Source of the DNA: a virus
Virus record (IMG/VR): IMGVR_UViG_3300032893_000894
Coordinates: 1 to 34,387 of that record
Reading direction: 5' to 3' (one strand)
DNA length: 34,387 nucleotides
Position numbers and translations under genes: made by a program. Numbering within the stretch: position 1 is the first letter of the stretch; the number at the start of each line of letters is the position of its first letter. Below are positions 4,269-29,305 of this stretch, one piece after another. The notes under the pieces were generated by a model that made no database searches, had not been told where the DNA came from, and saw nothing but the letters and a program-made list of their open reading frames with translations.

Positions 4269-7200
4269 GCTCATCCTTGCCTTTTTCTTCGCAGTCGCTC
4301 TCCACGCCGCGACACCGATGGAGTTGCGCCTTCAGCCTGGATACGAGGTATTTCTATGCACAACGAATCTGAGCAACTGCCCGAACTCGATAAGTATCTC
4401 TGGCTTGGACGTGAATACCGACGAGACGAGCGCGGCGGCAACCTTCCCAAGTCAGCCGACGATTGGTGGCGCACCTTTCCCTACAGCCCCGATAACTCTC
4501 TCTTCGTGCTCCAATTGCAGTACGGTGACGCTCACCGCTTCCTCCACTGCCGTCGGTTCAGTGCCGATCACATTTACGGATAGCCTCGGCTTCGCCCGCG
4601 TCCTGTGGGCGCACGTCAACACCTCGAACATCATGCCGCACTGGGGCACCGACCTCGCCACGTACACGACGTACACGGCGGGCAAATCGTTCCTGCCGGT
4701 GAGCCTGTTCTCGACAGGCGGTGCGTACCTGCAAGACACGCAATACCCCGCGTTTTCTTCGATGCCGAAGGACATGTTCAACTCTGGCGTGCTGGTGGCC
4801 GAGACGGGCCTCTCGACGCCCGAGAACCTTGGCGGGACGTACTCGCAGGCGCACTATGCCTCGGCGCTGGCTACGCAGATAGCCGCAAACACGGCGCTGC
4901 TCAACGGGTACGCGATGTATTACAACTATGCCGGGGACAATTGGATCAAGGCCACCGGCACCGATTCTGCACCTGGGCTATTCCAGTCTACTCAAAAGCC
5001 CGCTGCGGCCTGGAGTCCCACAGCCATGGCGACCGCTGTTCAGGCGCTGCAAACAGCGGCGAACGTGCTCACGGTGCAAATGTGCGACGAATGCGACACG
5101 AGTTGGGAGAACGTGCCAGGCGGCACGGTCAATTGGGCGAACGGGCTCACGTCGGTGAGTTGGAACGGAACAACGGTCACGATGACGTGCACCAATTACG
5201 TCCAGACGGCGGGACTAGCGATTCCCACCGGCTGCCCTTACAATGCGGCTAAACGGGGCATCATTACCGGAAGCGGAGTCAGCGGACTCGACTACGCCAA
5301 CGACAACGTAAGATATTCCTTGACGGTCACTACCACCGGAGGAAATGGCGGCTGGACTACGATCACGTTTCCACAGCCCGCAGGGTTGGTCGGCTCAGGA
5401 TCACTCACCAATGGCGGGAATCCGGGGACTACATTCAACTGGGCGGTGGCGCAGACATTCGATTCCTCCTACGCTTCCTGCACGACTTCGCCGAACTGCA
5501 CGCTCTATATCACCAATGGAGCAATTCGGCAGCTTTCGACGCAGTATTTTGCGAGCTCCGGCGGCGTGACGGCAAGCCCGCTGCTAGCTTACGAAGTCTC
5601 GGGATTGAATGGATCGTATGGTGCAAGTCAAAACTGGATGGGGGATCAAACGATAAGCGGATCGCCCACGATCTACGACATTGGCAATCCTTCTTCGCCA
5701 ATAGGCTTCATGCCGAATGGCGGGACGCTTTGGAATTTCAGCTATGCCGTGGGTGCGCTTCCCGCTGTCTTCCGAGACAGATATGCTCTGCTTGGGGCGA
5801 ATCGACTCCAGCCCATCTCAGGGAAAGTCTCGGGCGTCACGCAGAATTATGGCTTCGAAGGAAGCGCTCTCACGGTATCGACCTGCAACGGGAACACTTT
5901 GACATTCACCGGCAACCACGGACTCTCGAACATTCAGCCGTGGACGACGCGGATCTCTGTATCGGGGAACTCAACGAGCGCTTGCAATACTAATTTCTAC
6001 GTGATTGGCATCCCGAACGCGACATCGCTCACTGTGGCGCTGGCACAACCCACTTCCCTCGGATGCTATGCGGCATCGACCAGCCCGTCATGCAGCGGCA
6101 ACACCACGGCAGTAACGGCCACGCTCGACACAGGCGGAACGTTCCAGATCCTCTATATGTTCGCGGGCGCGAGCACCTACGGAAGCCGGGTGATCGGTCA
6201 GAACGACGGGGCGAGCAACTGCACGTATACGTTTAACCGCAGCCATTCCTTCACTGTGGCGACAGGCGTTTCTAATCTCGACAACAATACTTGGTTCATG
6301 ATTCCGGCTCCGTATGGTGCATCGTGCGTCGGAAGCCAGCCTCAGAATCGCGGCATCATCGCGCAGGTTCCGAACTTCTCCTCTGGCTCGGGCGGCACGG
6401 CTCTGCTGACGCCAGATAACGGCTACCATGCCGGAGTCAATTACGTGGCGTTCTCTTCGTTCGCCTCGCCGCGCTGGATGCACGCAAGCGCGGATCTCCA
6501 GGTGATCCTCGGAGCGCGGCAGCTCCGCTGGTACTTCGGGGGCTTAAACATTAACTATCCACCGGCCGGCGCAGCCAACTACAACACGGTATTCAACGAC
6601 ACAAACGCATCGTTTCAGGCTGCCGTGCATCCACGCTTCAACGAATTCGGGCGCGGGCAGAAGGACTGGGACGGCGGCGTGGAGGCGTTTAAGTTGTGGC
6701 AAGCGCTCTCGCCCTGCATCGACCAGCCTCGGGGCAGCGCACCGGACCTCGGACAAGGCGCAGGCTTCGAGACGGCGCTGTTTCTCTCGGCTACATGCAA
6801 CGCCATCATCGGAACCGTGTTGAACGACGGGCCTGGCGTGACGCGCACGGTGGACTTGTCCGGGATCGTGGTGAGCGGCCAGCCGACGATCCAATATTGC
6901 TCGGGCCAGAACGGCATCACGATCCGCTCAATCGCCTCTGGCGTGACCTCGGACACTTTCACGTTCACGCCAGATAACTGCACAGGCTTCGCTTACGTTG
7001 GCGCGACTAACTGGTGGACGCCTCCCGTGCGCGGGGTGAATTTCGCGGCGTGCCCCTCGGGATCGACTGGAATTTCCGTGCAATGGTCCTACTCACCGAT
7101 CGGCTTCGTGCCTGCGGTTTACAACGGCATCACTCCGCTGACGGTGAACGCGGGCGCTGCTTCGAGCGTCACCATTCCAGCAGATCGGCGCATCGGCACA

Positions 7201-15892: not shown

Positions 15893-17167
15893 GTGGCTAT
15901 CGCTTCAGTTTCCGCTGCAATCGCTTCGCAGCATGAATATCTGAGACCCAATCTCGAAGAGCTTGCTCTTCTTTCCGGGACGCTTTGGAAACGCATCAAC
16001 GCGCGCACCGATATCAAAGCGATCTCGAACCGTCCCGCGCGCATCCCGTTCCAGCCCTTGACCGGCGGTATCTTTCGCACCGGCTCAGCTCTGTTCGACG
16101 GCAACGATATGGGTCAAGGCTCCGGGCCGCAGGAGACTTTCGGGACGCTCTCGTGCGTCTCGTTCCTCCAGGCGTCGGAATATACGGCTCTCACCGAGTA
16201 CTCAACCGACTCTGATGAGAAGGCCATTGCGAACTACGTCACGCTGACGCAGAAGCAGGCTGCCGAGACGTTTGGCGGCTACATGGACGCGCTGTACTGC
16301 TATGGCGATGGCTCTAACACGCTCGATACCGTGGTTTCCACCACCACCAACGGGCTGGTGGTGAACAACGCCAACGCCTTCCAGGACAACCAGCTGGTTG
16401 ACATCTGGTCCGCGCTCGGCGGAACGCTCCGCGGAACGGTCCAGATCCAATCCGTCGATATCGCGAACAACACGATTTGGCTGACCGGGACGTATCCGGC
16501 GGGGACGACCGCTGGCGACCTGATCCTGGTAACGGGCTCTGCCGGCGTCGCGAATTCAGGGCTGTTCGGCCTGCTCTATTACTGGGCAGCCGGCAACACC
16601 GGGAACTACATGGGTATCCAGAAGTCGGCCTATCCTGGCAAGTTCTCAACCCCCAACATCAATTTCGGCTCATCGGGCGGATCGTTGACGCCCGCGAGCG
16701 TCCGCGCTCTCGAGGCCCAGATCATTCTGGCGCTCGGCGAAGAGCGCGCGGATTCGTCGGAACTCATTGCCCACATGAACGTGGACATGGCGGCGGCGTG
16801 GGAGAACAATGCGCTCCCGGTGCAGTCCATCATCTACAACCAGATGAAAGGCGACGAATCAGCCGACATGCTGAAGAAAAAGCAGACCTCAACCATCGCG
16901 GGCCGCGAAATCGTTCGCAACGTCCGCGCCAGGCCGGGCCTGATTCACTTCATCCCGCTCAAGCACGTTTTCCGCCTGGAAACCAAGGCGGTCGATTATT
17001 ACGAAGTCGGTGGGCAGACCATCTTTCCGGCCTACGGCGCCTCCGGCGGCTTGATGTCGGCCATGCTGTTCTACCTCGTAACCATGGTGCAAACCGGGCT
17101 GGGTCAACCGCGTTTGGCCGCGTTCATGAACAACGTCACGATTCCGAAGTACTACTTCGGGCACTAA
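15893..17167 (+). CDS. Major capsid protein
   Basis: 424 residues with a GTG start and AGAGGTG five bases upstream. It forms the icosahedral shell. Support comes from position after portal and scaffold, its own promoter and leader, and content like HK97-fold capsid proteins: an N-terminal helical arm (ISQ-free, HEYLRPNLEELALLSGTLWK), KQAAETFGGYMDALY spine-like helix (about 120-135), NSGLFGLLYYW, a late helix with LALGEERADSSELIAHMNV and a beta-rich C-terminus ending IPKYYFGH. ATG at 15891 is in another frame and gives only a short product. I cannot name a specific homologue. Confidence 0.85.
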   Translation: MAIASVSAAIASQHEYLRPNLEELALLSGTLWKRINARTDIKAISNRPARIPFQPLTGGIFRTGSALFDGNDMGQGSGPQETFGTLSCVSFLQASEYTALTEYSTDSDEKAIANYVTLTQKQAAETFGGYMDALYCYGDGSNTLDTVVSTTTNGLVVNNANAFQDNQLVDIWSALGGTLRGTVQIQSVDIANNTIWLTGTYPAGTTAGDLILVTGSAGVANSGLFGLLYYWAAGNTGNYMGIQKSAYPGKFSTPNINFGSSGGSLTPASVRALEAQIILALGEERADSSELIAHMNVDMAAAWENNALPVQSIIYNQMKGDESADMLKKKQTSTIAGREIVRNVRARPGLIHFIPLKHVFRLETKAVDYYEVGGQTIFPAYGASGGLMSAMLFYLVTMVQTGLGQPRLAAFMNNVTIPKYYFGH

Positions 17168-17178
17168 AGAACTTAGGA

Positions 17179-17832
17179 ATGCTTGAAGTAGCTTCCAGCC
17201 TTCGGCACTGGCCGATATCGATGCGGCGATTCGGGTTGAATCCCTACGGGGAGGCAAAATACCGGATTGTGTGGGCGCCGTCCCGCAAGCGCATCGTTTA
17301 CGGCCAGTGGCCCGATGGTTCCACCGGCGCGCGCTTCGTCGCAGCTTACCCGGTTGGCGATATCTGGATCATGGAGCAGTGGCGCTCGGCGGCTGAATTC
17401 GCCAAGATGAGCGAGGCGCAGTGGAATCTAGAAATGACGATCCTCGGACCATACCCGACTCGGGGAGAGTACGAGATTTGCCATAGCTTCGAGACATCGA
17501 CGCCGGATGATGCGAACCTGGAAAAGCTGATCCTGTGGATTGAGAAATCAAATCACGTTCGCTTCTACGATACGCAGGACTGGCACCGGCGAGACGCTGA
17601 GCGCGAGAAGGAGGTGATCGGCAACCAGCAGGAGGCGATGATCCGCAACTGGCTCCCGGCCTTCGGAACGGCGCCCATGAGCGGCTATCGCGGCGGTAGG
17701 AGCCACAAGGCCGCGCCCATCACCAGAACCGCTGAAGAGCTTGGCTTGCCGACACAGGGCGGCCAATTGCGCTCGAAGCACAATCCCAACCGTCAGAAAT
17801 TCGCAGTGCCACTGACAGAAGCGGTATTGTAA
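17179..17832 (+). CDS. Head-module phage protein, unknown function
   Basis: 217 residues. ATG lies 11 bases after the capsid stop with AGGA directly in front; an internal ATG at 17221 (MRRFGLNPYGEAKYR) is an alternative. The same frame is open further upstream, but that part is inside the capsid gene and is not coding. The segment NPYGEAKYRIVWAPSRK is a pattern I associate with conserved proteins beside phage capsid genes. Trp- and Arg-rich, soluble, with a helical middle (WHRRDAEREKEVIGNQQEAM). Role unknown. Confidence 0.75.
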   Translation: MLEVASSLRHWPISMRRFGLNPYGEAKYRIVWAPSRKRIVYGQWPDGSTGARFVAAYPVGDIWIMEQWRSAAEFAKMSEAQWNLEMTILGPYPTRGEYEICHSFETSTPDDANLEKLILWIEKSNHVRFYDTQDWHRRDAEREKEVIGNQQEAMIRNWLPAFGTAPMSGYRGGRSHKAAPITRTAEELGLPTQGGQLRSKHNPNRQKFAVPLTEAVL

Positions 17833-17835
17833 TGA

Positions 17836-17965
17836 TGGAACCGTGGCGGGACTCGAACCTGCGACCTGATGCGAAGCGGAGCGTGATCGGCCATGCCACG
17901 ATCCTTTGGGCTCGCTGTTTTCCGCCTATGTGCACCCGCTCTATCCGACTGAGCTACACGGTCCC
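17836..17965 (-). tRNA. tRNA-like gene with 52-nt insert at the anticodon loop (or tRNA pseudogene)
   Basis: Read on the minus strand, the segment holds a D arm GCTCAGTCGGATAGAGC and a T arm GCAGGTTCGAGTCCCGC (one A-C mismatch). A 7-bp acceptor stem joins GACCGTG (17957-17963) to CACGGTT (17839-17845). GGTGC (17932-17936) can pair with GCATC (17868-17872) as a 5-bp anticodon stem, but 59 bases separate them instead of 7. Removing 52 bases leaves exactly 74, the normal class I length. No way of joining the insert ends gives the conserved U33, so the anticodon cannot be read. Two further bases on each side extend the acceptor stem to 9 bp. A -10-like TATACT lies just upstream (17973-17978). It is the only antisense feature in the late operon. 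Confidence 0.6.
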
Positions 17966-17968
17966 GTT

Positions 17969-17981
17969 CGATAGTATATCG
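17969..17981. repeat. Short inverted repeat between tRNA-like gene and next CDS
   Basis: CGATA and TATCG flank a 3-base centre. It lies where a promoter for the leftward tRNA-like transcript would be and just ahead of GGAGG (17990-17994), the ribosome-binding site of the next rightward gene. It may be only an AT-rich promoter element. Confidence 0.3.
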
Positions 17982-18000
17982 TAGTACTTGGAGGTTTTGA

Positions 18001-18735
18001 ATGCCATTCGCAGCCCATCGCGCCGCGCCGCAGATCGAACAGGAAATCAACGGACATCAGCAGTTGATGAACAACAACCGCTATGCCCCGCCGATGCTCG
18101 ACTCCATCAAAAAAGTTTCAGAGCAAAGCCGGGTCTATATTTTCAACGTCGGCCCTTGGCCGCAGCAGCGCTACCTTGGCTCGCTCGGTATGAAACTGAT
18201 TCCGGCATGTCCCGAAGGCAAGCCGTATTCCGAGCCGTTGGTGGTCGAAGGCATCGTGCGCGAACTCTACCCGATCAACGAAGGCGAGTACAAGCAGATC
18301 CTTGAAGACGGCGTGAATGTCGCACAGCAAATCTTGGGCGTTGGACCGCATCTGTCGCCGCGCAATTCCTTCGTGCCCTATGGCGTGTTTGTCTCAACGA
18401 CCGATCCGCCGAATGAAGCTGACCTGAAGAAGGCGCGCGCGGCCCTGCGCGACAAGTTCCTGGAGTTGGTGACGGAGGCCGACAGCGCGTATTCGCTTGG
18501 ACCGAAGACCGCTGAAGACACGATCCGCCCCGAAACGCATTTCGTCGCGGCGCGGGCGCTTGGCAAAACTGAAGTGGATTGCCCGTGGCTCAGAAACGCG
18601 CAGGTTCCTGCGGAGCGCGCGGAATGCCCCGGCTGCGGCACGGTCTATAAGATCGGCATCATGAAGTGCCGCGAGTGCGGGTACATTCTCGACAAGAAGA
18701 AGTACGAAGCCAACAAAGCCAACTTCGCGGCGTAA
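18001..18735 (+). CDS. Phage structural-module protein with C-terminal zinc ribbon
   Basis: 244 residues, with a strong GGAGG six bases before ATG. The N-terminal two thirds are mixed alpha/beta without a motif I recognise (RVYIFNVGPWPQQRYLGSLG; EPLVVEGIVRELYPI). The C-terminus carries four cysteines at 209, 212, 223 and 226 (CPGC...CREC), a typical treble-clef or zinc-ribbon spacing. Location between capsid and adaptor genes suggests a head-completion or minor virion protein. Zinc binding is inferred from the cysteine pattern. Confidence 0.75.
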   Translation: MPFAAHRAAPQIEQEINGHQQLMNNNRYAPPMLDSIKKVSEQSRVYIFNVGPWPQQRYLGSLGMKLIPACPEGKPYSEPLVVEGIVRELYPINEGEYKQILEDGVNVAQQILGVGPHLSPRNSFVPYGVFVSTTDPPNEADLKKARAALRDKFLELVTEADSAYSLGPKTAEDTIRPETHFVAARALGKTEVDCPWLRNAQVPAERAECPGCGTVYKIGIMKCRECGYILDKKKYEANKANFAA

Positions 18736-28903: not shown

Positions 28904-29305
28904 TCATTTTGAAGTGGCCGCTTCGATCAATGCGGCTTCAGTTGTACGCCGGGATAGCAAACCCGGCTCAATGTTTCCGTGATGGTCATGCACAAAGTCG
29001 AGCATCCTGGCTTTGCCTTGCAGAACGAGAGCCAGCGATGCCTTGCCGCAGTTGTAGCCGAAGCTGATATACGCGGCTGCCGCGATGATGGGCTTGTCCT
29101 TGACTAATTCGAACAGCGGCTCGGCATCGGTGGCGAGCATTTCCGTTGCCGTTTGGTAGGAAATGGCATAGAGGGCTTTGATATCTGACGGAGTCATCCG
29201 ATGACCGAAGCCGATCGTCCACAGTCCGCCACCGTCCTGGTACGGAGTGAGGCGGCAGCCCTCGAATGTTCGGATGAGTGCTGCTGCCAAGTCTTGAACC
29301 GTCAT
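28904..29305 (-). CDS. Endolysin, GH24 (T4-lysozyme-type) muramidase
   Basis: 133 residues. It cleaves the glycan backbone of peptidoglycan (N-acetylmuramic acid to N-acetylglucosamine bond) to release phage. The catalytic triad spacing is intact: E15 in FEGCRL, D24 in PYQDGGG and T30 in LWTIGFGH, exactly the E-x8-D-x5-T pattern of P22-type lysozymes. Later NCGKASLAL and GLLSRRTTEAALI correspond to the C-terminal lobe. The protein is a little shorter than typical (about 145-165) and lacks a signal or SAR segment, so it needs a holin. The start overlaps the upstream stop as ATGA. Confidence 0.93.
   Translation of the reverse strand: MTVQDLAAALIRTFEGCRLTPYQDGGGLWTIGFGHRMTPSDIKALYAISYQTATEMLATDAEPLFELVKDKPIIAAAAYISFGYNCGKASLALVLQGKARMLDFVHDHHGNIEPGLLSRRTTEAALIEAATSK

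Follow-up and report, generated by a model that had tools for sequence, protein, structure and literature searches.

Inside a 34,387-bp viral contig (the window, by which we mean the whole stretch of DNA analysed), the minus strand carries a tRNA-like gene in which the two strands of the anticodon stem stand 59 nt apart, compared to the usual 7. The reading that we prefer, held tentatively and with confidence just short of even, is that this element encodes a phage-borne tRNA-like RNA that does not decode and is instead a mimic. We favor it because the tRNA body is intact, the element appears to have its own promoter, no single cut gives a canonical anticodon arm, and the arm varies in a likely homologous locus. 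In the proposed mechanism, a self-contained unit made up of a promoter and an RNA of about 130 nt, placed between two structural genes and antisense to them, would be transcribed from the abutting promoter. The RNA would fold as a tRNA body whose anticodon arm has gained about 52-54 nt at the stem-loop boundary, host enzymes such as RNase P and the CCA-adding enzyme might take it as tRNA-like, and instead of decoding, it could then act as a decoy, a sponge or a stable carrier of the extended arm.

Anatomy of the tRNA-like element

The element and its surroundings comprise the following features, with the basis of each assignment in brackets.

15893-17167, plus strand: major head protein gene (phrog_14242, E 1e-10)
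17179-17832, plus strand: conserved structural-region gene that stops just before the element (homologs in relatives; the 17179 start is inferred, and the ORF finder lists the gene as 16477-17832)
17829-17838, minus strand: position 73 and 3' flank, CCATCATTAC, 9/10 as in contig L134 (sequence comparison)
17838-17963, minus strand: tRNA-like gene with acceptor, D, extended anticodon and T arms (ARAGORN with introns; RF00005, 39.6 bits)
17839-17845, minus strand: acceptor 3' strand, CACGGTT (ARAGORN, Rfam)
17846-17862, minus strand: T arm, GCAGG-TTCGAGT-CCCGC, with one A.C mismatch (ARAGORN, Rfam)
17868-17872, minus strand: anticodon stem 3' strand, GCATC (ARAGORN, folds)
17873-17931, minus strand: 59 nt that replace the 7-nt anticodon loop (ARAGORN, folds, comparison with contig L182)
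17896-17913, minus strand: insert core, GAGCCCAAAGGATCGTGG, 16/18 in common with the L134 insert (sequence comparison)
17932-17936, minus strand: anticodon stem 5' strand, GGTGC (ARAGORN, folds)
17938-17954, minus strand: D arm, GCTC-AGTCGGATA-GAGC (Rfam)
17957-17963, minus strand: acceptor 5' strand, GACCGTG (sequence and folds)
17973-18001, minus strand: promoter-like TTCAAA-17-TATACT (motif scan of the region: 1 found, 0.3 expected)
18001-18735, plus strand: conserved gene after the element, directly next to the upstream gene in relatives (homologs in relatives)

An earlier note, made from the letters alone, had placed an antisense tRNA-like gene with a 52-nt intron-like insert at this position and had suggested a check with covariance models. 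Both the gene and its coordinates were borne out: in an Rfam scan of a 201-bp stretch, minus-strand 17963-17838 scored 39.6 bits against RF00005 (cut-off 29, E 2e-7), with the 59 nt filling the loop position of the alignment. An Rfam scan of the whole window missed the element, and ARAGORN run without introns called no tRNA there. With introns allowed, ARAGORN called c[17837,17963] with a 52-nt insert and labelled it Ser(GCT). The group I and group II intron models gave no match at the element, as RF00005 was the only family reported for the 201-bp stretch at E up to 10, and 52 nt is too short for an intron of either group.

The stems of the element form 20 of 21 possible pairs. Pairing is complete in the acceptor (7/7, 17963-17957 with 17845-17839), in the D stem (4/4, GCTC/GAGC) and in the anticodon stem that had been proposed across the 59 bases (5/5, 17936-17932 with 17872-17868), and GG at 17965-17964 can lengthen the acceptor helix to 9 bp. 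The T stem pairs 4/5, its single A.C mismatch making the original description of the T arm as intact slightly generous. Relative to a 7-nt loop the excess is 52 nt, and relative to the 5-nt loop of L182 it is 54 nt. A hairpin that had been pointed out within the insert (GATCG with CGATC) exists, but the anticodon region as a whole folds no better than it does with shuffled inserts (z 0.1). The constrained fold has no bulge-helix-bulge, the mark of archaeal-type introns at their splice sites, and shows a 4 x 1 internal loop and then a 7-bp helix.

Genomic setting and a candidate promoter

The window encodes a terminase (PF04466) and a head protein (phrog_14242), and the element lies antisense inside the structural gene block, between genes that end at 17832 and start at 18001. 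This 168-bp gap contains only the element and the promoter-like sequence, whose TATACT ends 7 nt before the G at 17965 that begins the 5' end GGGACC; the element may be transcribed from this abutting predicted promoter. Using the flanking gene and the capsid gene, we collected 14 loci from relatives of the phage. Where these loci cover the site, they carry no tRNA, and the two genes adjoin each other across short gaps. Because the gap holds only the element and its abutting promoter and the site is empty in relatives, the two together look like a self-contained inserted unit. Phage morons are self-contained inserted units.

The earlier note had offered three guesses, namely a tRNA mimic, a decayed tRNA and a recombination site. 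The last would make the element an attP whose tRNA sequence serves to integrate the phage at a host tRNA gene, and many phages do carry tRNA 3' ends beside an integrase, including Rhizobium and Thermus phages matched here. The element, however, has both the 5' and the 3' tRNA halves, the contig has no PF00589 tyrosine recombinase, and the site is within the structural gene block. We consider this reading highly improbable and rejected it, as the combination of an integrase with only the 3' part of a tRNA is not what the window holds. Searching with a pattern built on the D loop of the window's element plus an insert gave no match, and only two matches share its acceptor as a candidate host tRNA, one a tRNA-Val and the other an interrupted tRNA.

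Other observations concern the same phage group. A relative of the window phage (L013/L135) carries an insert-bearing tRNA elsewhere, near the terminase and beside a tRNA with anticodon TTA. Within L135 233-453 (minus strand), the latter is a class II tRNA that would read the stop codon UAA, and the former carries its insert between its D and anticodon arms. In the window itself, the product of 28904-29305 (minus strand, opposite to the structural genes) resembles a phage lysozyme (endolysin) from its first residues, as judged by eye.

Excision of the insert and related phage genes

Lak megaphages carry intron-bearing tRNAs (Devoto et al. 2019, PMC6784885), and a short intron was the main alternative to weigh. 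We enumerated all single excisions that leave 26 + 5 + 7 + 5 nt plus a variable loop. With variable loops of 3-6 and 10-24 nt, no excision gave both U33 and purine 37 with a paired 5-bp stem, which upholds and extends the earlier claim that U33 cannot be recovered by simple excision. As it stands, the anticodon region likewise lacks the 7-nt loop carrying U33 and purine 37.

For comparison, 2.9 million viral contigs were scanned for D and T arms separated by 64-94 nt, and matches were kept if they had at least 6/7 acceptor pairs and at least 2/3 outer T-stem pairs. Among the matches listed, at least 63 tRNA-like genes pass this filter (the window included, near-duplicate contigs counted separately); these were exact-pattern scans, and the comparator counts are lower bounds biased to one D-arm consensus. 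Again among the matches listed, one excision restored a perfect arm, and with it a normal decoding tRNA, as expected of Lak-type introns, in 30/63, compared to 1.1 expected with shuffled inserts, and after dropping duplicates and matches with a normal T loop inside, 24/46 remained restorable. The window falls in the non-restorable half. By this measure short introns, or inserts resembling them, are common in phage tRNAs, since one excision restores about half of the comparators. Together with the Lak introns (PMC6784885), this makes the earlier statement that short anticodon-loop introns belong only to archaea and eukaryotes too strict.

Among the matches listed, 15 restorable genes have the insert inside the anticodon stem, mostly after CG and starting with TAA or similar, and many stem-insert genes have a hairpin followed by ACAGCAA. 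A set with 39-60 nt inserts at 28/29 or 29/30 (L018, L022, L026, L029, L030, L031, L041, L051, L052, L070, L079, L091, L114 and L116), most of them after CG with a start of TAAA or similar and returned to a perfect tRNA by one excision, looks like an uncharacterised class of short tRNA introns. A tRNA cluster in a Myxococcales MAG (L162, JAEUKI010000052.1, 3490-4500) contains several interrupted tRNAs. Their 5' halves terminate in CG|TAA(A)A and have the motifs CTGCAGCGA and GCAGTACAGC in common; one of these 5' halves is identical to that of the window at 27/28 positions. In five other comparators (L087, L115, L019, L035 and L102) the insert holds its own T-arm-like stem-loop, recalling Lak introns that may encode tRNA.

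The comparator with the insert most similar to the window's lies on L134, a 9.5 kb contig from an unrelated phage without protein similarity to the window. Within its insert, GAGYCCAAAGGATCKTGG matches the window's insert core at 16/18 positions, and a shuffled window insert finds an equally good match among all comparators with p 0.09. The 3' flanks are identical at 9/10 positions (chance 5e-5), and the combined chance is very roughly 1e-4, post hoc. Across the 21 stem pairs, four changed on both sides yet still pair and three changed on one side. The two genes have the insert core, acceptor 3' strand, 3' flank and place of insertion in common and differ in stems and gene context, with unrelated proteins, and we regard them as likely homologous, from a single pair noticed post hoc. 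Scans with the insert core returned only L134, chance matches and one pair with a complete tRNA inside the match.

A scan for the common 3' end found three relatives of L134, which carries a Bacteroidetes-type integrase and has its tRNA-like gene in sense orientation about 30 nt upstream of a small ORF. L182 is 95% identical to L134 over 726 bp and lacks 52 nt, reading CATCC-TTAGC-GGATG where L134 reads CATCC-[52 nt]-TTAGC-GGATG, and L183 and L184 keep the body and flanks while the anticodon arm is cut down to CATATG. Because L182 lacks the insert and L183 and L184 lack the arm, these alignments indicate that the insert is a discrete unit and that this locus can do without an anticodon arm. 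The divergence of L134 from L183 is so recent that their identical bodies say little on selection. These phages have another tRNA-like gene as well, at L134 3852-3958 and L182 2956-3062, whose anticodon loop measures 15 nt and whose variable arm is long; one of this type is visible by eye in L183 and L184.

These forms bear on the possibility that the element is a pre-tRNA with a short phage-type intron, removed by a ribozyme or by a phage or host nuclease and a ligase, as may act on Lak introns. An intron of no recognised type is the main rival because the 52-nt segment is precisely present in L134 and absent from L182 at the stem-loop boundary. The earlier note had named an uninterrupted tRNA in relatives as evidence against its proposal; relatives of the window have no tRNA at the site, and such a gene does exist for the best homolog, as L182 against L134. 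Phage tRNA introns have been reported, many other phage genes are restored by one excision, and the empty L182 form, otherwise a 5-nt loop, can form a 4-bp stem with the loop CUUAGCG (CTTAGCG in the DNA), which has U33. The window, in contrast, has no excision that yields U33 with purine 37, and its empty form as predicted by alignment to L182, GGUGC-GCUUC-GCAUC, would have only 5 nt in the loop, or G33 were the loop opened to 7 nt. Full and empty forms alike lack a normal arm of 5 bp and 7 nt. The constrained fold has no bulge-helix-bulge, there is no group I or II match, and the armless L183 and L184 suggest that decoding is not selected at the homologous locus. We consider an intron rather unlikely.

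The same data can be read as a decayed phage tRNA that lost its function after an insertion in the anticodon loop, which we consider unlikely. The T-stem mismatch and missing U33, an extended arm that folds no better than chance, the lack of copies in relatives of the window phage and the armless versions at the homologous locus all fit such decay. Yet all other stems pair, with double changes relative to L134, a near-consensus promoter abuts the 5' end, and the insert is partly common to an unrelated phage. Among the three guesses the mimic fits best because of its paired stems, its abutting promoter and a likely homologous locus where the arm is long, short or absent. Non-restorability, the candidate promoter, the empty site in relatives, the probable L134 homology and an enterophage precedent argue for the mimic. 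On the other side, the T-stem mismatch could be early decay, the extended arm folds no better than shuffles (z 0.1), and the L134 homology is a single post hoc pair.

Enterophage tRNA-like RNAs and comparison with known systems

Following four of the comparators led to tRNA-like elements of enterophages. In L110 and the near-identical L073 and L125, such an element separates the early leftward promoter region from the N ribosome-binding site. The P22-like phage L138 has a different tRNA-like element (1696-1825) at the same N-leader place, and in lambdoid phages the N leader looks like a cassette whose content varies. HK75 also carries the L138-type element, with the late terminator Tr' on one side and the holin gene on the other. 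Skatevirus and Akiravirus have it antisense to tail genes, a Pantoea phage and a Wanchaivirus have it too, and it is present in 170/5,426 E. coli genomes, mostly unannotated. The L110 copy (5714-5840) is flanked by complementary ACTTTGG-type repeats and shares a different insert with L118 328-454 (minus strand) from another contig. A boxA-like GCTCTT stands upstream of several copies of the L138-type family.

The family alignment (A1; L138 1696-1825 and L139-L145 at about 1200-1345) gives a consensus fold in which a tRNA body bears a lengthened anticodon arm and a variable-arm hairpin. Changes on both sides are seen at eight pairs, of which six lie in the lengthened arm, and none of the slid and shuffled controls came near this covariation. 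The window is not a member of the family, as the family model R1 gives it 14.9 bits, below the 18-23 bits of ordinary tRNAs; an ATAGGCG likeness between the two amounts to about 2 sigma. Judged from its covariation, the enterophage family shows only that tRNA-like RNAs whose anticodon arm is enlarged are maintained by selection in phages.

It is conceivable, and we put this forward with less confidence than the mimic reading of the window, that the window element belongs to a broad group of regulatory or decoy RNAs of phages, tRNA-like and for the most part unannotated, that keep the body and swap the anticodon arm for a domain that is enlarged or variable. Independent versions would then exist in the phage group of the window, in Bacteroidetes phages and in enterophages, including some lambdoid N leaders. 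If phages widely carry such non-decoding RNAs, phage tRNA counts and arguments about codon supply would need revision, and the RNAs would be candidates for countering tRNA-cutting or tRNA-sensing defences, for trapping tRNA enzymes or for regulating phage leaders, both early and late. Ordinary laboratory phages would suffice to test this, given that one locus exists in long, short and armless forms and that E. coli and Salmonella phages carry the covarying family.

The open-access papers searched gave nothing relevant on phage tRNA-like leaders or decoys, and comparison beyond the L134 locus is with three known or newly aligned systems. Archaeal and eukaryotic tRNA introns are likewise short inserts in the anticodon arm, whereas the window has no bulge-helix-bulge and no restorable anticodon loop. 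Lak tRNA introns are also unexplained inserts in phage tRNA genes, present in some relatives and absent in others, a pattern seen between L134 and L182, whereas the window's own relatives have no tRNA at the site. Lak tRNAs are called with a defined anticodon after intron removal, while no excision brings the window element to a canonical loop, and unlike them it stands alone in its 34-kb contig. The enterophage family differs in being class II-like, with a variable-arm hairpin, and has no sequence match to the window, but in both a tRNA body bears an anticodon arm that is oversized and base-paired, and the Skatevirus copy is likewise antisense to structural genes.
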